The notes under the pieces: generated by a model
Databases searched by the model: none
Told to the model about the DNA's origin: nothing
The model's input: only the letters and a program-made list of their open reading frames with translations
Program-made: the position numbers and the translations under genes
Source: Pelagibius sp.
GTDB lineage: Bacteria > Pseudomonadota > Alphaproteobacteria > Kiloniellales > Kiloniellaceae
Assembly (NCBI RefSeq): GCF_028289705.1
Contig: NZ_JANQOI010000100.1
Coordinates: 1-64,000 of the forward strand
Reading direction: 5' to 3'
DNA length: 64,000 bases
In this document: positions 20,293 to 29,554 of the stretch, piece after piece
How positions within the stretch are numbered: the first letter of the stretch is position 1
Layout of the letters: every line of letters starts with the position of its first letter

Positions 20293-20313
20293 GTTGCATT
20301 CCGGCGAGGGTCC

Positions 20314-20688
20314 TTAGAGGCGGTGCGCGCGCCCGGTCAGAAGCGCTTCCACGAGCCGGTACTGTTCGTCGGATAGCTCGATGAAGCGCCCGCCGAAGAC
20401 ACCGTCCTCCGCCACCTCGCGTTCGATCTCGGCGTCGAGCCGCAGTTGCCGGCCGTCGTCCAGCCAGATGTCCAGCTTGGTGCGGTGGCCCACGGGAAGG
20501 CTCAGAGGCGTCGGTAGCGTGGGGTCGATGGCCGCGCCGAAGCTGACCACGGAAAGGTCGACCAGCGAAACCGCCTGCCCTTCGATCTCCGCCGAGAGGT
20601 CGAACGGACGGCGCCGGTCGCGGCGGCGGTCCATGGGTTTGACGCTGATGTTGCGGTTCACATCCGGCCTCGATGACTGGTTCTGCAA
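20314..20688 (-). CDS. PilZ-like domain protein
   Basis: 124 aa. The arrangement resembles PilZ cyclic-di-GMP receptors: an arginine-rich stretch MDRRRDRRRPFDLSAEI (19-35) that could supply the RxxxR motif, a strand with DLSVVSFGAAI in place of the usual D/NxSxxG, then LPVGHRTKLDIWLDDG and FGGRFIEL. The second motif has two extra residues before the glycine, so binding of c-di-GMP is not assured. The ATG at 20688 or the second Met (20634) could be the start. Convergent with the SleB hydrolase gene. Confidence 0.65.
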   Translation of the reverse strand: MQNQSSRPDVNRNISVKPMDRRRDRRRPFDLSAEIEGQAVSLVDLSVVSFGAAIDPTLPTPLSLPVGHRTKLDIWLDDGRQLRLDAEIEREVAEDGVFGGRFIELSDEQYRLVEALLTGRAHRL

Positions 20689-20778
20689 AGCGGATTCGCC
20701 CGCCTCCGGGCGAAGCGCAAGCAGCCTAGCCAGCCTTGGTATAGAAAGGGTTACCGCCCACTTTGCCCAATGGACGCG

Positions 20779-22317
20779 TCAGCTCAGGAGGTGGCGCGCG
20801 ACCTTTCCCGTGGGCGTCAACGGCAGGTTGGACTGGAACTGCAGAAGGCCCGGGCACTTGCCGTCGGGAAGCTCCCGGGAGAGCCAGCCGAGCAGGTCTT
20901 CGGCGTCCAGCGAACAGCCCTCCTTCAGTTCCACGAAGGTCTTCGCCTCCTGGCCCAGGTAGTCGTCCGGCACGCCGATCACCGCCGCCTCGCGGACGGC
21001 GGGATGGTCCTTCAGCACCGCCTCCACCTCGGCGGGATAGATGTGCTCCTCGCCGCGCAGGATCTTGTCGTCGACCCGCCCCAGCACCTCGAGGCCGCCG
21101 CGCTCGTCGAAGCGGCCGATGTCGCCGGTGCGGAACCAGCCGCCGCGCAGACGCTTGCGGGTCTCGTCCGGCAGGTTCAAGTAGCGCTTCATCACGCCGG
21201 GGCTGCGCACGAGGATCTCGCCCTGGTCGTAAAGCCCGGCCTCGCGTCCCGCCTCGTCCATCAGCTTCACCTCGACCCCGGGCACCACACGGCCGACCAT
21301 GGTCGAGCGCGTCAGCTTCGTCGCGTCGCCCCAGGCAACGATGGAGGAGACTTCGGTAAGGCCGTAGCCCGGCACGATCTCCAGGCCGAAGCGGTTGCGG
21401 AAGGCCTCCGCCAGTTCCGCCTGCAGCGGTGCCCCGCCGGTCGCGCAGAGCCGCAGGCTGCGGCGCACCGCCTGGGTGTCGACGCCGTCGGCGCGCTCCA
21501 GCATGTACTGGTAGAAGATCGGCATGTGGACGAAGTAGGTCACCGCATGCTCGACGATCAGGCGCCAGATCAAGGCCGGATCGAAGCCGTCGACCAGCAC
21601 CATGGTCTCACCGTTCAGAACGGCGAGATTGAGACCGCAGATCTGCCCCATGACATGGAACAGCGGCGTCGATACCAGACGCACCGCCGTGGCGTCGCGG
21701 TCCGCCAGGGCAGAGTTGATCATCACCATGGACGCCAGGTTGGCCTGGGTGAGTTCGACGCCCTTGGGCCGGCCGGTGGAGCCGGAAGTATAGAGCAACA
21801 CCGCCGTGTCCTCGGCGCCGTAACCATGGCTGTGGCAGCTCTCCGACTGTCCCTCCATGAGGTCCGAGAGGGCCGGATAGCCGGCGATGGTGGACGCTGC
21901 TGCGATCTCCGAGGGGATGATCCAGACTTTATCGCAGATGCCCGCTTCGGCTGCCGCGGGCAGGGCCTGGTCGGCGTAGGCGCGGTCGCCGCGGCCGTCG
22001 AAGGTGAGCAGCGCTTCGGCCCCCGAATCCCGCAGTTGAAAGGCGATGTCGCGCTGCCGCAGGGTAGTGCTCAGCACCACCGCCAAGGCGCCGATCTTGA
22101 GAATGCCGTAGTAGGCGGCGAGAAAACCCGGGCGGTTGCTGCACGCCAGGGCGATGCGGCTGCCCGGGCCGAAACCGCGGGCGCGCAGGCCATTGGCGAC
22201 CTGATTGGCCTGGCTCAGCACCGCCGCATAGCTGATGTGCCTGCCATCAAAGACCAAGGCCGTGGATTGGGGTGCGCGAGCCGCCGTCGCGTCCAGGAAG
22301 AAAGCGACATTCAACAT
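20779..22317 (-). CDS. ANL-superfamily acyl-CoA synthetase / AMP-dependent ligase
   Basis: 512 aa, full length. It activates a carboxylic acid as acyl-AMP and then transfers it to CoA. Motifs are LLYTSGSTGRPKGVE (P-loop, about 163-177), GYGLTEVSS (about 316-324), WFRTGDIGRFDERGGLEVLGRVDD (about 392-415) and the C-terminal PTGKVARHLL with the adenylation Lys. The acid is unknown. It is the last gene of a same-strand run from luxR through luxI, P450 and MFS, so I infer quorum-regulated secondary metabolism or supply of an acyl-CoA to the signal synthase. Confidence 0.9.
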   Translation of the reverse strand: MLNVAFFLDATAARAPQSTALVFDGRHISYAAVLSQANQVANGLRARGFGPGSRIALACSNRPGFLAAYYGILKIGALAVVLSTTLRQRDIAFQLRDSGAEALLTFDGRGDRAYADQALPAAAEAGICDKVWIIPSEIAAASTIAGYPALSDLMEGQSESCHSHGYGAEDTAVLLYTSGSTGRPKGVELTQANLASMVMINSALADRDATAVRLVSTPLFHVMGQICGLNLAVLNGETMVLVDGFDPALIWRLIVEHAVTYFVHMPIFYQYMLERADGVDTQAVRRSLRLCATGGAPLQAELAEAFRNRFGLEIVPGYGLTEVSSIVAWGDATKLTRSTMVGRVVPGVEVKLMDEAGREAGLYDQGEILVRSPGVMKRYLNLPDETRKRLRGGWFRTGDIGRFDERGGLEVLGRVDDKILRGEEHIYPAEVEAVLKDHPAVREAAVIGVPDDYLGQEAKTFVELKEGCSLDAEDLLGWLSRELPDGKCPGLLQFQSNLPLTPTGKVARHLLS

Positions 22318-22352
22318 GGCAAGTCTCCTCCAGAGCGTACTTGATCAGAACG

Positions 22353-23513
22353 TCATCGCCCGGCCGTCTGTGGCCGGGGGCGGTAGATCCAGATCGTCAT
22401 CAGCAGGGCCATCAGCGCCAGGGCGGCGCCGGAGAGGTAAGGCCAGCCGCTGCCCAGGCTGCCGAGGGCGAAGCCGCCCCAGACCGGACCCACGATCCGT
22501 GCGGCGCTCAGCACGGCATGGTTCAGCCCCATGGCCGTCCCCTGAATGGACGGCGGGGCCGCCTTCGAGAGCAGCGCCTGCAGGCAGGAAAGGCTCGTGG
22601 CGATGCCGCCACCCAGCAGCATCAGGGCGATGGCGATGGCCAGGTCGCTCGGCCAGACGACGAAGAGCGACATGCCGAGCCCCATGGAAAGGGCCGCCCC
22701 GGCCGCCACCACCTCTTCGCCGAGGCGGTGGCAGAGCACAGGGATGAGGACCCAGAGGCTGAACAGCGCCGCGATGCCCGCGCACATGAAGGCCAGCGCC
22801 ACGTCCGCCGCCCCCCAGGCGAGGATCCGCGCCGACCAGAGCCCCAGCGTGGTCTCCATGGACGCATAGGCAAAGGCCAAGACCGCCATCACCGCGATGG
22901 GGCCCAGGCAGAGCGGCGCAGCAATGACGCTGGCGGGATCGTGGACCACCAGCCTTTGGACAGGCGCCGGGCGCCGGGCCTCCCGCAACAGGGCGGCGGC
23001 CAGGATCACCGCGAGGACGGCAAAGCCGGCCGCGCCCAGGGCCCCGGCCCGATAGTCCGTGCCCTCCGGCCCCAGCAGCCACTCGCGCCCCAGCAGCGGG
23101 CCGATGATGAAGGCGATGGCAAAGGCCGAATTGACATTGGCCATGCCCCAGACACGGCGCCGGTCGCAGGTCGAGTCCGCCATCAGCGCCTGGATGACCG
23201 GGATCGCCGCGTTGCTGACACCGGCCAGCGCGCGCGCGGCGAAGAGCCAGAGAAGCGAGTCGGCATAGGCCAGCATCAGATAGGCGAAGGGCGCCGTGGC
23301 AAGCGCCAGGCAGGTGACGCCGCGGCGGCCGAAGCGGTCGCTGAGCCGTCCCAGCGCCGGGGCCAGCAGCAGCACCATGGCCGTGTCGGTGACCAGGATC
23401 AGCGACACCTGGATGGGACTGGCGCCCAGGGCCAGGGCCTGGAACGGCAAGGCTGGATAAACGATCCCAAGACCGATCAGATAGACCAGGGTAACGACGA
23501 CCGCTCCGGCCAT
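22353..23513 (-). CDS. MFS transporter
   Basis: 386 aa with about 12 hydrophobic segments. The conserved loop 2-3 motif is visible as GRLSDRFGRRGVT (about 59-71), and the loop 8-9 region as VLCHRLGEE. It resembles drug/metabolite exporters of the DHA1 type. It starts 4 bp after the P450 stop and ends 35 bp before the ligase start, so it belongs to the same transcript. Probable exporter of the cluster's product. Confidence 0.87.
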   Translation of the reverse strand: MAGAVVVTLVYLIGLGIVYPALPFQALALGASPIQVSLILVTDTAMVLLLAPALGRLSDRFGRRGVTCLALATAPFAYLMLAYADSLLWLFAARALAGVSNAAIPVIQALMADSTCDRRRVWGMANVNSAFAIAFIIGPLLGREWLLGPEGTDYRAGALGAAGFAVLAVILAAALLREARRPAPVQRLVVHDPASVIAAPLCLGPIAVMAVLAFAYASMETTLGLWSARILAWGAADVALAFMCAGIAALFSLWVLIPVLCHRLGEEVVAAGAALSMGLGMSLFVVWPSDLAIAIALMLLGGGIATSLSCLQALLSKAAPPSIQGTAMGLNHAVLSAARIVGPVWGGFALGSLGSGWPYLSGAALALMALLMTIWIYRPRPQTAGR

Positions 23514-23517
23514 GGTC

Positions 23518-24918
23518 TCAGCTTTCGCGCAGCGGCACGAGCTGCATCGTCAGCCCGCTGGGGCGCAGTGTGATCATCGGTTCCGGCTTGACCTCCTGGC
23601 CGGACAGCAGATGGAGATCGAAGTTCTGCACGATGCCGACCATGGCGATCAGCGATTCGAGGATCGCGAAGCGCTCGCCCAGACAGCTCCGCGGTCCGTC
23701 GCTGAAGGGGAAGTAGGCGAAGCGCCGGCGCGGGTCACCGGTCTCGGGATCGAAGCGGCCCGGATCGAAACCTTCCGGGTTGTCCCAGAGTTCCGGGCGG
23801 CGATGCACGGCAAACATGTTCATCATGACGTTGGTGCCAGCGGGGATATCCAGCTCGCCGATGCGGTCATCGGCCACCGCCGTGCGCGAAAAGGTCCACA
23901 AGGGGGGATAGAGCCGCAGCGCTTCGTCGAGCACGCAGCGCGTATAGGTCAGCTTCGACAGATCGGCGAAATCGGGCGCGCGGCCGCCCAGAACGCTTTC
24001 CACCTCCGCCTTCACGCGCCGGCGCGATTCCGGGTGCAGCGACAGGAGGTACCAGGTCCAGGCCAGTCCGTTGGCCGTCGTTTCGTGCCCGGCGAGGATC
24101 ATCGACAGCACCTGATCTCGGAGCGCCTTGTCCGAACGGCCGTTCTGATTGGCCATCATCAGGTCGAGAAGATCGCCCTCCGACTCTGGATCATGCTCGG
24201 CAGACCGGGCGGCGGCGCGGCGCCGGGCGATGAGGCCGTAGACGAAGTCGTCGAGGCTCGCCAGAGCGTCCTTTACGGCGCGGTTGTTGGCCGTCGGCAG
24301 CCAGCGCGGCAGGACGAAGGGGGACCAGATCCGCCTCTCGGCATCGCGCAGGACCCGGGTCATGGCAACATAGACCTGTTCGTGCTCGCCCTGCAGATGC
24401 ACCGAAAAGAGCGTGCGCATGACGATGTCCAGGGTCAGGCGCATCATCTCCGGCACCACATCGAGCGGTGCCTCCACCGCCGCCTGCTTCCGCCAGCGCG
24501 CCAGCATCTCGTCGACCGCCGTCTGCATGGCCTCGGTCATGCGCCGCAGTTGGCAGCCCTGGAACCCGCGCGCGGCGGTCTTGCGCTGATGCAGCCAGTC
24601 GTCGCCCTCGGCGAGGAAGATGCCTTCGCCCAGCACCGAGCGCATCATGTCGTAGAACTTGCTCTTCTCGTAGTTCAGCCGGTTGTCCTGCAGAACGTGG
24701 CGGATCATTGCCGGATCGTTCAGCATGACCACCCGGTCCGGCCCGAACCGCAGGGTCACGGCACCGCCGTGCTGCCGCGCGACACGGGTGAAGAAGCGCA
24801 AGGGGTCGCGGCGCAATGCCGGCAACACCCCGACCAGGGGCCAGCCTTTGAGTTCCGGCGGCCGCTCGCCGCCTTGCAGATGGTCGAGCGTAGAAAACTC
24901 TTGGACAGCCAGACTCAT
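23518..24918 (-). CDS. Cytochrome P450
   Basis: 466 aa. A haem-thiolate mono-oxygenase with I-helix AGHETTANGLAWTWYLLSLHPE (oxygen-activating Thr), K-helix ExxR (DEALRLYPPLWTFSR), and haem-binding loop FPFSDGPRSCLGERFA with the axial Cys at 412. Such bacterial P450s hydroxylate fatty acids, terpenes or polyketides, and the substrate here is unknown. It needs external ferredoxin partners, and none is encoded nearby. A GC hairpin (24954-24983) separates it from the upstream 86-aa gene. Confidence 0.95.
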   Translation of the reverse strand: MSLAVQEFSTLDHLQGGERPPELKGWPLVGVLPALRRDPLRFFTRVARQHGGAVTLRFGPDRVVMLNDPAMIRHVLQDNRLNYEKSKFYDMMRSVLGEGIFLAEGDDWLHQRKTAARGFQGCQLRRMTEAMQTAVDEMLARWRKQAAVEAPLDVVPEMMRLTLDIVMRTLFSVHLQGEHEQVYVAMTRVLRDAERRIWSPFVLPRWLPTANNRAVKDALASLDDFVYGLIARRRAAARSAEHDPESEGDLLDLMMANQNGRSDKALRDQVLSMILAGHETTANGLAWTWYLLSLHPESRRRVKAEVESVLGGRAPDFADLSKLTYTRCVLDEALRLYPPLWTFSRTAVADDRIGELDIPAGTNVMMNMFAVHRRPELWDNPEGFDPGRFDPETGDPRRRFAYFPFSDGPRSCLGERFAILESLIAMVGIVQNFDLHLLSGQEVKPEPMITLRPSGLTMQLVPLRES

Positions 24919-24953
24919 GGCTTCCCCCTCCGTTCCAGTGGCAGTGTTTCCCG

Positions 24954-24983
24954 GCCCGTGGCCTGCCGGATCAAGCCACGGGC
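24954..24983. terminator. Hairpin between the 86-aa gene and P450
   Basis: GCCCGTGGC (24954-24962) and GCCACGGGC (24975-24983) are a perfect 9-bp inverted repeat with a 12-nt loop. No U-tract follows on the minus strand. It could be a partial terminator or an RNA-stability element that lowers P450, MFS and ligase expression relative to luxI. Confidence 0.45.
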
Positions 24984-24993
24984 GGCCGGCAGC

Positions 24994-25254
24994 CTAGTGG
25001 CGCTGTTGCATCGGCACTTCGGCGACGCCAGAAAGCCGGGCCGAGCCCTTTTGTTCGACCTGGGCCACCGACTTCTCGGTCAGGGCGATCGAGTCCGACA
25101 CGGCCTCGGCGGCAACGCCGATCAGATGCGCGGCGAACGAAAGCCCGGTGCGCTTGGCTTCGATTCGCAGGTAGTCCAGGCAGCGCTTGATGGCCTCGGC
25201 GTCCTGCAGGGGGTCGCAAAGCTTCAACTCGATCGGCTTTTTCTCTTCGCTCAT
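24994..25254 (-). CDS. Hypothetical 86-aa protein downstream of luxI
   Basis: Not recognised. Soluble, mainly helical. The N-terminus is charged (MSEEKKPIELKLCDP), then YLRIEAKRTGLSFAAHLIGVAAEAVSDS, probably a helix pair. Start ATG 25254 is firm because GAGGAGAAAG lies directly upstream. It follows luxI by 38 bp and precedes the P450, so it is probably under quorum control. Small conserved genes next to luxI sometimes modulate signal synthesis, but nothing in this sequence shows that. Confidence 0.72.
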   Translation of the reverse strand: MSEEKKPIELKLCDPLQDAEAIKRCLDYLRIEAKRTGLSFAAHLIGVAAEAVSDSIALTEKSVAQVEQKGSARLSGVAEVPMQQRH

Positions 25255-25292
25255 AACTTTCTCCTCGTTGATGTGATCTGCCTCTTCCCGGC

Positions 25293-25913
25293 CTAGGCGA
25301 CTGCCGGCTGATCCAGAAAGAAGGCATTGCGAATGACGGATCCCTGAATGCCGGCGGTGGACCGCAGGCTGGCCAGGGTTGCGTGGTTCATGTCGAAGTG
25401 CCCGGCGAAGGCGATTTCGCCGTCGATGCACACGGGGCACGTCTGTTGCTTCGGGGGACAGCCGAGGCGCGGCAGTAGCCGCTCCATGCGGGCGTCGTAG
25501 ACGGTGATCAGCTCGCGGATGCCCATGGCGATGCAGGTTTCGGTCACCGCGCAGAGCAGCTCGCTGCTCACCCGCCCCCGGTTTCCCCTACCCTCGACCG
25601 CGAAGCGGCTGCCTTCCCAGATCAAGGGGTGGTAGGGGGCCCTCTCACCTTCCAGAAGCTCCGGGAAAACGTCCCGCAGCATGTAGGGGCCGGTGGTCGG
25701 CAAGAATCGCCAGCTGCCGAGCACCCGCTCCTCCGGATCCATGGCCAAGAGGTAAATCGGGTAGAGATTGTCGAAGGAGTCCCGCTCTTCGCCGTCCGAA
25801 ACCGCCACGTCCCACCCCAACCTCTGCCGGAACACGCGGCAGCGCTGGCGAAACATCTGGCTCAGCGCCCCGGCGTACTCCGCATAGAGATCTGGGGTAA
25901 CGACGTCGATCAC
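25293..25913 (-). CDS. Acyl-homoserine-lactone synthase (LuxI family)
   Basis: 206 aa from GTG 25913. It makes the diffusible quorum signal from SAM and an acyl-ACP or acyl-CoA. All hallmark residues are visible: MFRQRCRVFRQRLGW (R, F and W of the N-terminal helix), ERDSFDN (two Asp), GSWRFLPT (Arg), and LIWEGSRFAVEG with catalytic Glu and Arg. I prefer GTG 25913 over TTG 25931 because AGAGGG precedes it and the family begins directly with a short I-x-V-V strand. Its promoter carries a near-perfect lux box. The acyl chain cannot be predicted from sequence. Confidence 0.94.
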   Translation of the reverse strand: MIDVVTPDLYAEYAGALSQMFRQRCRVFRQRLGWDVAVSDGEERDSFDNLYPIYLLAMDPEERVLGSWRFLPTTGPYMLRDVFPELLEGERAPYHPLIWEGSRFAVEGRGNRGRVSSELLCAVTETCIAMGIRELITVYDARMERLLPRLGCPPKQQTCPVCIDGEIAFAGHFDMNHATLASLRSTAGIQGSVIRNAFFLDQPAVA

Positions 25914-25974
25914 AGGCCGACCCTCTCGCAATCCGATCTACCGGCGATTGGACTGCGGAAGGGGCTGCCTGACA

Positions 25975-25994
25975 GCCCCCCAGAACTGGGGGGC
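25975..25994. promoter_or_regulatory. Candidate lux box upstream of luxI
   Basis: GCCCCCCAGAACTGGGGGGC is a 20-bp dyad, perfect except for the central AA, with the CCAG-N2-CTGG core typical of LuxR-type binding sites. Its centre is about 71 bp upstream of the luxI GTG, which fits activation from near the -35 region. The neighbouring LuxR is the obvious ligand-dependent activator. Confidence 0.75.
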
Positions 25995-26058
25995 CACGGC
26001 CGGACGACGCCGGCGACGGCATCGTCGTCAGTGTAAAAACTTCAAATTTTTCAGGGAA

Positions 26059-26829
26059 CTAGGGGATAATGTGACCCAGCAGGATCGCTTTGACCACCGC
26101 GTGATGCTTGGAGAAGACCCCGAGCTTGCGCATGGTGTTCTTGAGGTGAAAGAGCACCGTTTCCTCGGAAATCGCCAGGATCTGGCCAACTTCCCAGGCG
26201 GTCTTGCCGCGGGCGGTCCACCGCAGGCAGTCGCGCTCGCGGTCGGTCAGCCGCACCCGCTCTTCCAGCGGAACATCGTGGGAGAGGCGCAGGAAGGCCT
26301 CGTGTGTCTGGGCCGCGATCCAGGTCAAGTCCTGGCAGCTCTTCTGGTAGGCGTCTTCGAATTCGGCCTGGGTGCCGCTGGTCGAGACGTTGAGGGTGGA
26401 AAGGCCGCTTTCAGGCCCGTGGATCGGAATGGTCGCACCCTTGGTCAGACCGAAATCGCCGGCCTCGTTGAAGACCTTCCGCTGGCCGTTGCTCAGATCG
26501 TTGCGGGTGCTGACATCCCGCCAGGTGAACGGCAGGATCGTCGCGGTCGCCGCCTGGAAGGTGGGATCCACGTCGCCGTAACCGCGCGAGAGATAGTGCT
26601 CGACCCAGTCGTCCGGATAGCTCGCCAAGAACTCATGAACGACCTGGCCGTCGGGGGAGGACTGAGGCACGAAAGAGCGGATGCGCTTGCCCAGGGGCGG
26701 GCGCACATGAACGTATGAATACTGGTCGAACCCAAGGTTTTCCAAGGTGTCCTGCAGGCCGGCACCGATCTCGGAAATGCTGCCGACGCCGGCAAGGGCA
26801 TCGACATAGCGTTCGACCAGCGGATTCAC
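26059..26829 (-). CDS. LuxR-family quorum-sensing transcriptional activator
   Basis: 256 aa. The N-terminal autoinducer-binding domain keeps the ligand residues W75, Y79, D88, P89 and W103 (DDWVEHYL, YGDVDPT, FTW), equivalent to W57, Y61, D70, P71 and W85 of TraR. The C-terminal GerE-type HTH spans about 193-240 (LTDRERDCLRWTARGKT, then VLFHLKNTMRKLGV). It lies directly upstream of luxI on the same strand, 145 bp apart, and probably activates luxI and the downstream metabolic genes through the lux box at 25975-25994. Confidence 0.94.
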   Translation of the reverse strand: MNPLVERYVDALAGVGSISEIGAGLQDTLENLGFDQYSYVHVRPPLGKRIRSFVPQSSPDGQVVHEFLASYPDDWVEHYLSRGYGDVDPTFQAATATILPFTWRDVSTRNDLSNGQRKVFNEAGDFGLTKGATIPIHGPESGLSTLNVSTSGTQAEFEDAYQKSCQDLTWIAAQTHEAFLRLSHDVPLEERVRLTDRERDCLRWTARGKTAWEVGQILAISEETVLFHLKNTMRKLGVFSKHHAVVKAILLGHIIP

Positions 26830-27053
26830 GAGAAGTAGGGCCGCCGCAGGGCAACCCTCCCTGTGGCAGCGGTCAGGCTGCGGCCCGGTCTGTCATCGAA
26901 GAAAGATCCGTCGGAGGGAGCAGGTCCGACGAAATCAAAAGGAGGGGTACCGCGGTGAGGAAGTGCCCGAAGACGGCTCACCCGCGGATGCAGTTCGGTG
27001 TATCCTACCGCTCTTGCCAGCTCCCCCTAGCCCTCCATCTGGCCAACCGCCGT

Positions 27054-27503
27054 CTACCCGTCGGACGCGCGGCCCAAGGTCTTCAGCAAGGATAGCACTT
27101 CCGCCCGCACCTTGGAGTCAGGAATTCTATAGTATGAACTGATGAGTTGCAGCGTCTCGCGCTGGTTGGTGAAATCGGGGTCGGAGGAATGAATGTGGGC
27201 GCCCGCACCGTTGCCGGCATCTGCGCCGGAGGACGAGGCCTCACTCTCGGACTCCACGCCCTCGAAGAAATAGGTAACGGGCACATTCAGGATGCGCGAA
27301 AGCTCGTAGAGCTTGCTCGCAGAAATCCGGTTCGCACCGCGTTCGTACTTTTGAATCTGCTGAAATGTCAGGCCGAGCGCGTTGGCAAGCTTCTCTTGAG
27401 AATACCCTAGAAATACACGCCGAAGCCTAACGCGTCCGCCGACATGAACGTCAACGGGATGTGCCTGTCTGGCTTTCCCCGCTGGTTGATGAGCAAGCAT
27501 CAT
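27054..27503 (-). CDS. XRE-family HTH regulator (paralogue of the 7.5-kb regulator)
   Basis: 149 aa. HTH_XRE at about 20-77: GGRVRLRRVFLGYSQEKLA, then LGLTFQQIQKYERGANRI, then SRILNVPVTYFFEG. A Ser/Gly/Ala-rich linker follows, and the C-terminal segment LQLISSYYRIPDSKVRAEVL matches the paralogue at 7545-8033. It is upstream of luxR on the same strand with 224 bp between, so it may influence the quorum locus, though that is only positional. A good sigma-70-like promoter is visible upstream (27542-27571). Confidence 0.88.
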   Translation of the reverse strand: MMLAHQPAGKARQAHPVDVHVGGRVRLRRVFLGYSQEKLANALGLTFQQIQKYERGANRISASKLYELSRILNVPVTYFFEGVESESEASSSGADAGNGAGAHIHSSDPDFTNQRETLQLISSYYRIPDSKVRAEVLSLLKTLGRASDG

Positions 27504-27898
27504 TTCACCCTACTATTCAGTGATTCCGTGACCCCGCGATGATTATATTCGATAGCCGGGGGAAACGACAAAGGAAAATCTCTCGCAAAGATGGTAAAAA
27601 TTTGTCTCTAGGTTTGCATATATGTGGAACTATCGACAAACGCGGGTTAACCGACTGATTCTGTAAGTAATAGTGGAAACTTATACTATTCCGTCAATTT
27701 ATTTCACTTAGACAACCTTAAAGCGAGTAGCGGTTGTATTCGCCCTGGAAACGCCGCCGCCACAGGAGGTGAAAGTGGGGCCTGGGGCGGCGGTCGTGGC
27801 TGCCGTCCGCAGGCGGATTATCGATGCGGGAAGGAGAGTGCGGCAGGGCCCGGCCAACAGGACACGCGCGCTTATCGGACAGGTGAACGCGCGCGCCG
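27504..27898. other. Intergenic region, 395 bp
   Basis: No gene supported. The left part holds the promoter of the XRE gene (see 27542-27571). 27600-27720 is AT-rich with several A/T runs. The right part is GC-rich downstream sequence of the histidine kinase gene without a convincing terminator. Confidence 0.5.
27542..27571 (-). promoter_or_regulatory. Sigma-70-like promoter of the XRE regulator
   Basis: Read on the minus strand: -35 TTGTCG (27566-27571), 18-bp spacer, perfect -10 TATAAT (27542-27547). The predicted start is near 27535, giving a leader of about 30 nt before the gene at 27503. Confidence 0.6.
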
Positions 27899-29554
27899 TC
27901 AGTCACCGATCGGCGGAGAGACCACCCGCAACACCTTCGCCGGGGTGGGCCAGCGCAGAACGAAGCGGGTTCCGACCTGAAGGTCGTCGTCCTCGATGGT
28001 GATATCGCCGTTCATGGAGCGGGCAGCGGAGCGGGCCACCGACATACCCAGGCCGGCGCCCTGGACGGCGACCGTAGACGCCCCGCGCCAATAGGGCTCA
28101 AAGACCGCTTCGCGCATCTCTTTGGGAATCCCGGGGCCGAAATCGCGCACCGAAATCTGGTAGCTGTCCTCGACCAGCGACAGCTCGACTTCAACACTTG
28201 GGGCGCCTTGCGAATACTTGATCGCATTCTGAAAGAGATTGGACAGGATCGTGTGGAGCATCACCGGCTGGCATCCCTCCGCCGGCAGGGCAATTCGGTC
28301 GCTCAGCTTCAGGGTCTGGCGGGCGCGCAGCGCCAGGGATGCCTCCCGCCAGACCGCGGAGCAGAGGTCGGCCAGATTGACCGCCTCGCCCTCGCGGGTC
28401 TTGCCCGGTGCATCGACGCGGCCAACCAGGAGCACATCGTCCACAAGGTTCGAAAGCGCGGACACGCCCTCGCGAATGGTCTCGGTTTCCTCGCGCCACT
28501 CCGCCTGGCTGAGTTTCTCGCCGCGGCGCTCCAGCATGTCCGCCGCCGACCTGATCGCCTGCAGCGGCGTCCTGAACTCATGAGAGACCATCGAGACGAA
28601 GCGTGACTTGTCCTCGCGCCGCTGGCGTTCGTGGTCGAGGGACAGGGCCAGGCGCCCTTCGTGGACGACCAGTGCATCGACCCTGCGGATCGTGAGCACC
28701 ATCAGCACGAGCAGGATCAGCAAGGCCAGGATCAGCAGTGGCGCGCCGCGCCACAGCAGATCGTCACCCGGCCGCCGTTCCTGCCAGACCACATGGCCGA
28801 CGGGGACTCCGTCGAGCCCCATAACCTGATGACCGGCAAGACCAGGGTCGGGTGGCGAATCGACGAACTTGGGCATCTCCAGCAGGCTGCCGAGGCTTGA
28901 GGCGGCGAAGAAGTCGTTGGCCAGAGGGCGGGTGAAGACGACGACCGAAGCGTCCTCAGGGGCCGGCGGATCTCCCACCTGCTCGAAGGGGGCGACGATG
29001 CTGGCGGCGATCACCTCCAACTGACCGTTCAAGGAGATGAACCCGGCCTCCGGGACCGCGTCGATGGTCCGGCCCTGGCGGGCCGCGTCGAGCAGCGTGG
29101 AAACGTTGGGCGGCAGCCGATCGAAAATCGGCACATCGGTCGGCCTGCCGTCGACGAAGGCGATCTTGGTTTCGTTGTCGGGGCCAACCACCCAGAGGCA
29201 GCGGATGCCAAAGGCCTCCAGCAGATAGGCGCCCAGCTCTTCACTGGCCCAGCGCTCGTCAAGCTCCTGATCGAGGACATAGATGACCTCGTCCCACCAG
29301 GCATAGTCGATCACCAGGGTGCGAAAAGCAGCGCGCCGGGCTTCGAGGGTCGAGGTGACAAGCATCACCTCGGTCTCGGCCTGGCGGCGGTTGAGGGCGT
29401 CGGCGCTCCAATAGAGCACCGCCACCATGGCCACCAGCGTCAGGATCACCAGCATCAGGATCGGCAACAGCAGGCCGCGGCGCCGATGCGCCACCAGGCG
29501 GCGCGTCTTGTCGACGCGCAGTGTCCGATTGTCCGCGCTTGTGGTTGCCGTCAT
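27899..29554 (-). CDS. Membrane sensor histidine kinase with CHASE4-like sensor domain
   Basis: 551 aa from ATG 29554. TM1 lies at about 27-47 (LLLPILMLVILTLVAMVAVL). A periplasmic CHASE4-like domain follows, with the hallmark DYAWWDEVIYV, then TM2 at about 272-292. The dimerisation/phosphoacceptor helix is SHEFRTPLQAI. The ATPase has N-box LFQNAIKYS, G1 VRDFGPGIP and G2 GAGLGMSV. No response regulator is adjacent, so it is an orphan kinase and partner and signal are unknown. A TTG at 29647 would add 31 residues. A 12-bp palindrome lies at 29659-29670 upstream. Confidence 0.92.
   Translation of the reverse strand: MTATTSADNRTLRVDKTRRLVAHRRRGLLLPILMLVILTLVAMVAVLYWSADALNRRQAETEVMLVTSTLEARRAAFRTLVIDYAWWDEVIYVLDQELDERWASEELGAYLLEAFGIRCLWVVGPDNETKIAFVDGRPTDVPIFDRLPPNVSTLLDAARQGRTIDAVPEAGFISLNGQLEVIAASIVAPFEQVGDPPAPEDASVVVFTRPLANDFFAASSLGSLLEMPKFVDSPPDPGLAGHQVMGLDGVPVGHVVWQERRPGDDLLWRGAPLLILALLILLVLMVLTIRRVDALVVHEGRLALSLDHERQRREDKSRFVSMVSHEFRTPLQAIRSAADMLERRGEKLSQAEWREETETIREGVSALSNLVDDVLLVGRVDAPGKTREGEAVNLADLCSAVWREASLALRARQTLKLSDRIALPAEGCQPVMLHTILSNLFQNAIKYSQGAPSVEVELSLVEDSYQISVRDFGPGIPKEMREAVFEPYWRGASTVAVQGAGLGMSVARSAARSMNGDITIEDDDLQVGTRFVLRWPTPAKVLRVVSPPIGD

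Follow-up and report, generated by a model that had tools for sequence, protein, structure and literature searches.

Pairing of luxI with a cytochrome P450 gene in Pelagibius and other Alphaproteobacteria: a candidate route to oxidised acyl-homoserine lactone signals

It is proposed here, with somewhat more confidence than doubt, that a locus of the marine bacterium Pelagibius (family Kiloniellaceae, with P. litoralis and P. marinus as named relatives) encodes an acyl-homoserine lactone (AHL) circuit with a dedicated cytochrome P450, which would tailor the signal by oxidising its acyl chain, whether on the AHL or on the acyl precursor. The inheritance of luxI together with a P450 gene, or its fusion to one, in many unrelated Alphaproteobacteria points to oxidation of the signal itself, before or during its use. 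The window analysed is the whole of a 64,000-nucleotide stretch of one Pelagibius genome, and all coordinates refer to it.

Organisation and conservation of the locus

Read along the minus strand, the locus consists of a PraR-like HTH gene, luxR, luxI, a gene for a protein of 86 aa, and genes for a P450, an MFS transporter and an acyl-CoA ligase, all of them co-oriented (Table 1). Every gene that the earlier note had named proved to be real and to lie in one direction, and the gaps from luxI onward are as short as it had described (4-75 nt): 38 nt separate luxI from the 86-aa gene, 75 nt the 86-aa gene from the P450 gene, 4 nt the P450 gene from the MFS gene and 35 nt the MFS gene from the ligase gene. 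The luxI call of that note was also sound, but its start codon (TTG at 25931) has been replaced by the GTG at 25913 that the orthologues share. An XRE/HTH gene at 27054-27503, inside the same interval, was missing from its gene list. The LuxR protein has AHL-binding and GerE domains and is LasR-like in a PDB sequence search, and its gene adjoins luxI.

Table 1. Features of the Pelagibius luxI-P450 locus, with positions in the window
Feature	Position	Strand	Evidence or remark
XRE/HTH regulator, PraR-like, 149 aa	27054..27503	(-)	HTH_3 3e-13
luxR, AHL-binding transcription factor, 256 aa, start tentative	26059..26829	(-)	Autoind_bind 4e-31, GerE 5e-18
lux-box-type dyad GCCCCCCAGTTCTGGGGGGC	25975..25994	(-)	centre 71.5 nt 5' of luxI GTG
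luxI, AHL synthase, 206 aa from conserved GTG	25293..25913	(-)	Autoind_synth 9e-38
86-aa small protein, predicted two-helix hairpin	24994..25254	(-)	without family match; kept in 9/9 loci
cytochrome P450, 466 aa, luxI-linked lineage	23518..24918	(-)	p450 2e-97; motifs; tree
MFS transporter, 386 aa, lineage-specific addition	22353..23513	(-)	MFS_1 3e-36
acyl-CoA ligase (AMP-binding), 512 aa	20779..22317	(-)	AMP-binding 1.5e-85

The whole gene order and its flanks are preserved in all eight Pelagibius genomes (the source and seven sisters), and a short contig of G011, which belongs to another genus of the Kiloniellaceae, preserves luxR through the ligase gene. Neither an internal terminator nor a second conserved dyad separating luxI from the P450 gene was detected at the locus, with no intrinsic terminator found in 20300-28000 and, when orthologous loci were compared, no second conserved dyad in the gap between the 86-aa gene and the P450 gene. 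As to unlinked relatives, which the earlier note had named along with a separating terminator or promoter as what would count against its reading, the genes are linked throughout the genus, but outside the family the MFS gene is unlinked and the ligase gene is too, save for one exception. The MFS gene is linked in Pelagibius and G011 only and is absent from the other luxI-P450 loci viewed, while the ligase gene is linked in these two and otherwise only in G242, where the locus (L158) reads luxR, luxI, 86-aa gene, P450 and a ligase that is 41% identical. The MFS and ligase genes are best explained as lineage-specific features that were added later.

The dyad before luxI

The sequence GCCCCCCAGTTCTGGGGGGC, 20 bp in total, has two 9-bp arms, 2 nt apart, that match perfectly as an inverted repeat. 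It forms a clearly conserved block in all nine orthologous loci, the rest of the luxR-luxI gap being poorly conserved, and a dyad-shaped pattern with up to three mismatches is expected by chance only 0.05 times per window. Its earlier nomination as a lux-box candidate is thereby strengthened, as judged from its conservation, its length within the 18-20 bp type, its place in the luxI promoter and its rarity by chance. Related dyads lie at about the same place in other families, namely CCCGCCAGTTCTGGCGGG (L117) and CCCCCCAATTCTGGCGGG (L066), and further ones precede luxI at L068 and L069 (CTGTCAGAACTGACAG) and at L071 (ACCTGTCAGTTCTGACAGGT). The last of these has what we take to be the classical lux box form, and because it belongs to the same series the Pelagibius dyad is most readily understood as a lux box that has drifted. 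It very probably drives the entire operon from luxI to the ligase gene.

The strict form of the box stands before luxI in all eight genomes of the genus and is essentially single-copy in each; a single sister genome out of the seven has an extra copy, with one mismatch, and beyond the box before luxI the source genome has only look-alikes with three mismatches. Since the strict box is found essentially only before luxI, the direct target of LuxR is probably its own operon, and weaker sites are possible.

LuxI and its acyl donor

Within the genus LuxI is 74-78% identical, and its conserved R, F, W, D, D, R, F, E and R residues are all intact. It has basic residues at both of the ACP-helix positions, R151 and R155, which correspond to K150 and R154 of LasI; BjaI has P and E there. 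The published criterion that separates the ACP from the CoA users is that the CoA-dependent clade is without a basic residue at ACP-helix position 9, that of LasI R154 (PMC4234381). In our tree BjaI groups with the protein of L106 in a supported set, apart from the Pelagibius LuxI clade. By its residues, then, LuxI is probably ACP-dependent, and a LuxI of the CoA type was considered and rejected on the ACP motif and on this separation from BjaI.

The 86-aa protein and the HTH regulator

Neither Pfam nor NCBIfam holds a match to the 86-aa protein. It is modelled as a two-helix hairpin (mean pLDDT 79), and a structure search with this hairpin returned no match at E under 2. In Rhizobium and Methylobacterium a small protein encoded behind luxI (CinS and MmaP, respectively) binds PraR (PMC4149787, PMC10790750), and the position of the gene makes it plausible that the 86-aa protein is an effector of this kind. 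Its relatives follow luxI even at L088, where luxR, luxI and the small gene have no P450 gene within reach, and at L067 a similar small gene adjoins a PraR-like gene. PraR-like genes near luxI also occur at L067, L159 and L161. Across the seven sister genomes the HTH gene of Pelagibius is syntenic, with 86-91% identity. Its product (P0007) and the paralogues in the genome are XRE/HTH proteins that are PraR-like by layout. Any of them might be the partner of the 86-aa protein, because the HTH gene at the locus is preceded by its own conserved region and has paralogues.

The P450 and its pairing with luxI

The motifs AGHETT (AGxxT of the I-helix), EALR (ExxR) and FSDGPRSCLG (FxxGxRxCxG) are all present in the P450. 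Its best sequence match in the PDB is 7wzl, labelled CYP184A1 in the structure search, which was run on the fusion model described below; 7wzm is the complex with oleic acid. To our knowledge, the substrates of a P450 cannot be read from its sequence. A P450 can act on AHLs: CYP102A1 hydroxylates those with C12-C20 chains near the chain end (PMC3355433). The marine alphaproteobacterium MOLA 401 makes polyhydroxylated AHLs, for which a P450 was proposed (PMC5479921).

Outside the family, about eleven family-level groups (f1, f6, f7, f8, f23, f50, f58, f71, f102, f121 and f142) have luxI paired with a P450 gene that points the same way. The hosts are uncultured Alphaproteobacteria, Minwuiaceae, Ferruginivarius, Rhodospirillaceae MAGs and G035, together with G242, three f142 genomes, G328, G102 and G034; loci L064-L071 and L039 are among the pairs. 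In every pair the P450 gene lies directly 3' of luxI, or of luxI and the small gene, and the operon often comprises luxI, the small gene, the P450 gene and nothing more. On a Bradyrhizobium japonicum plasmid the luxI and P450 genes overlap. A P450 gene neighbours luxI at 9 of 30 sampled luxI loci, a proportion that is biased in that the profile was made from linked loci and the matches are not independent.

A class-wide search with the P450 profile placed eight luxI-linked proteins at the top, above the unlinked P450s; seven of these linkages were seen directly, and the eighth (G154) is at a contig end, with luxI and the small gene on its presumed partner contig. Three of the eight, those from f142, were absent from the profile. 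On the P450 tree the linked or unlinked label requires two changes against 16.5 when shuffled, and a supported set of 20 linked proteins stands apart from another that holds 22 of the 23 unlinked ones, in trees that were quick ones and with an unlinked set made up of the next-best matches to a profile of linked sequences. The distance matrices of LuxI and the P450 correlate (r 0.70-0.90), as they would also from shared species history. More distant linked P450s, those of L019, L102, L112, L071 and the fusions, are weakly placed in the tree, and these pairs and the Bradyrhizobium one may be independent pairings.

P450-LuxI fusion proteins

In three genomes the two enzymes are encoded in one reading frame with the P450 first: G207 and G449, of the same genus (686 aa), and G029, of another order (665 aa). 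One of the fusion genes occupies 835-2895 of L132, on the minus strand. The fusions of the two lineages are 46% identical, without internal stops and with the LuxI catalytic residues intact. Pfam detects both domains, and an AlphaFold model has a mean pLDDT of 82.6 and a pTM of 0.85. A frameshift or assembly artefact as their source was ruled out by their occurrence in three genomes and two lineages and by the identity between the latter. At the fusion loci a luxR gene points away from the fusion gene, which in G207 and G449 is followed by a PraR-like HTH gene. When plasmids were searched with the fusion protein, no place covered 80% of the query.

Judged by their sequences, the fusions are strong evidence that both enzymes serve one pathway, and they leave the order of action undefined. 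Linkage and fusion together show a shared pathway and do not give the direction of the reaction.

Proposed mechanism and alternatives

From the gene order, dyad, pairing, fusions, and active-site and ACP-type residues that were observed, we infer all of the chemical and binding steps as follows. LuxI would join S-adenosylmethionine to a fatty acyl group, probably delivered by ACP, and the co-transcribed P450 would oxidise the acyl chain, either of the finished AHL or of the acyl donor. The oxidised AHL and LuxR would then bind the dyad and induce the operon of luxI, the 86-aa gene and the P450, MFS and ligase genes. Export of the signal, now more polar, is the probable role of the MFS protein in Pelagibius, where the ligase may activate or recycle the fatty acid. 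The 86-aa hairpin probably relays the response by binding a PraR-like HTH protein, perhaps the product of the gene that precedes luxR. We put at about even the broader proposal that two-step synthases of LuxI and a P450, sometimes a single polypeptide, are widespread in Alphaproteobacteria and that chain-oxidised AHLs are the true ligands of LuxR.

The earlier note had favoured a quorum-sensing-run route in which ligase, P450 and MFS protein produce a metabolite. The LuxR/LuxI circuit and the lux-box dyad of that scheme are borne out, but the metabolite pathway is weakened by the retention of the P450 without the MFS protein and ligase. That luxI is autoregulated and these three proteins serve to produce and release an oxidised fatty-acid derivative other than the signal now seems unlikely, if still worth keeping in view. 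The ligase and MFS genes, which a model of signal tailoring does not need, could point to another product, as they are co-linear with the P450 gene at gaps of 4-35 nt and kept in the genus and G011, and in G242 too a ligase gene lies behind the P450 gene; however, the P450 stays with luxI where neither of them is present, two lineages have it fused to LuxI, and no condensing or scaffold-building enzyme is encoded in the operon. Because the P450 gene remains beside luxI, or fused to it, where the operon holds little else, the P450 appears to be tied to the signal and not to a separate product.

A tie to the signal would also suit an enzyme of signal turnover, whereby the P450 oxidises the AHL and so damps or ends the response, a negative feedback built into the circuit. 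Oxidation by CYP102A1 does lower AHL activity in a reporter (PMC3355433), and the level of a P450 encoded together with luxI would increase along with the signal, but a synthase fused to its own inactivator would be self-defeating, and we hold this to be improbable. Least probable is the suggestion, also made in the earlier note, that the ligase makes an acyl-CoA for LuxI in the manner of BjaI and RpaI. Linkage of the ligase gene in the genus, G011 and G242 would accord with it, but R151 and R155 of LuxI and the position of BjaI elsewhere in the tree speak against it, as does the lack of a linked ligase gene at most luxI-P450 loci.

If the P450 does oxidise the signal, as we prefer to think, P450-made AHLs would be a class of signal that is missed by heterologous expression of luxI alone, and they could explain the polyhydroxylated long-chain AHLs of a marine alphaproteobacterium. 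Oxidation by a dedicated enzyme could make the signal a private one, unread by neighbours with ordinary AHL receptors, which bears on the evolution of signal specificity. With the fusion proteins, a single gene is enough for a direct test of the idea.

Relationship to known systems

In the open-access literature that our search covered, no description of a luxI-P450 pair, a fusion or such a circuit was found. Separate parts of the proposal have precedents. CYP102A1 makes P450 hydroxylation of long-chain AHLs a possibility, but this Bacillus enzyme was assayed for AHL oxidation and is not the partner of a luxI (PMC3355433). MOLA 401 demonstrates that oxidised AHLs exist; in the accessible part of that account, however, the P450 is noted in the genome only and linkage to luxI is not reported (PMC5479921). 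The BjaI and RpaI synthases belong to the LuxI family, and a CoA ligase is relevant to RpaI, whereas the Pelagibius LuxI differs in its ACP-motif residues and in its position in the tree (PMC4234381).

Closer in arrangement is the R1-I1-crotonase circuit of Mesorhizobium japonicum, in which an enzyme gene also lies right behind luxI and is needed for an unusual acyl chain (PMC10470506). That enzyme is of the crotonase family, a CoA substrate is proposed and no fusion is mentioned in the portion of the paper accessible, whereas Pelagibius has a P450 and a LuxI of the ACP type. The CinR-CinI-CinS/PraR and MmaI-MmaP/PraR systems similarly have a small gene right after luxI and a PraR-like HTH gene nearby or in the genome; in Pelagibius, however, it is luxR that the HTH gene adjoins, and the small gene is followed by a P450 gene. 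The likeness in position is good. With canonical AHL quorum sensing, as in the ACP users of the LasI/TraI type, the locus shares the LuxI and LuxR domains, the catalytic residues, the dyad and the basic ACP-type helix, and loci of the Pelagibius type differ from it in the co-oriented P450 gene that stands behind luxI and in some lineages has become fused to it.

Flanks of the luxI operon

The region upstream of the gene for the PraR-like HTH regulator (27503-27770 of the window) is unusually strongly conserved throughout the genus, with conserved blocks in the genus comparison that include TTACCA..GAGATTTTCCTTTG and GGGGTCA, and this conservation suggests that the HTH gene is under regulation of its own. 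At the other end, the acyl-CoA ligase gene is followed after 90 nt by a co-directional open reading frame (20314-20688), the sequence of which reads as PilZ-like. This frame is retained in relatives and so may belong to the luxI-ligase transcript, although its distance from the ligase varies.

Related loci elsewhere

Natural fusions of P450 and LuxI occur in two alphaproteobacterial lineages.

Natural P450-LuxI fusions
Feature	Location	Strand	Note
P450-LuxI fusion	L018:76-2073	+	one of three
P450-LuxI fusion	L132:835-2895	-	one of three
P450-LuxI fusion	L153:1498-3558	+	one of three

On a Bradyrhizobium japonicum plasmid (L143:4914-6807) luxI and the P450 gene overlap by 41 nt, with luxR divergent from the pair; the existing annotation has the two as separate genes only.

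Relatives of the 86-aa protein are also found without luxI (loci L051, L052, L053, L054 and L056). Several of these lie near genes that, read by eye, look YcaO-like and near short repetitive 'DPGDxxSARV' proteins. Such a neighbourhood is possibly a RiPP locus.

Elsewhere in the window's own genome, a 287-aa frame has a marginal Autoind_synth match (L024, G000:C151:48791-48973; 24.4 bits, counted with its neighbours). Beyond the Alphaproteobacteria, LuxI-family open frames of ~190-240 aa are present on Nonomuraea contigs (L077, L078, L079 and L082; E 1e-45 to 1e-21 with an alphaproteobacterial profile), and their occurrence in several genomes of this actinobacterial genus suggests horizontal transfer.
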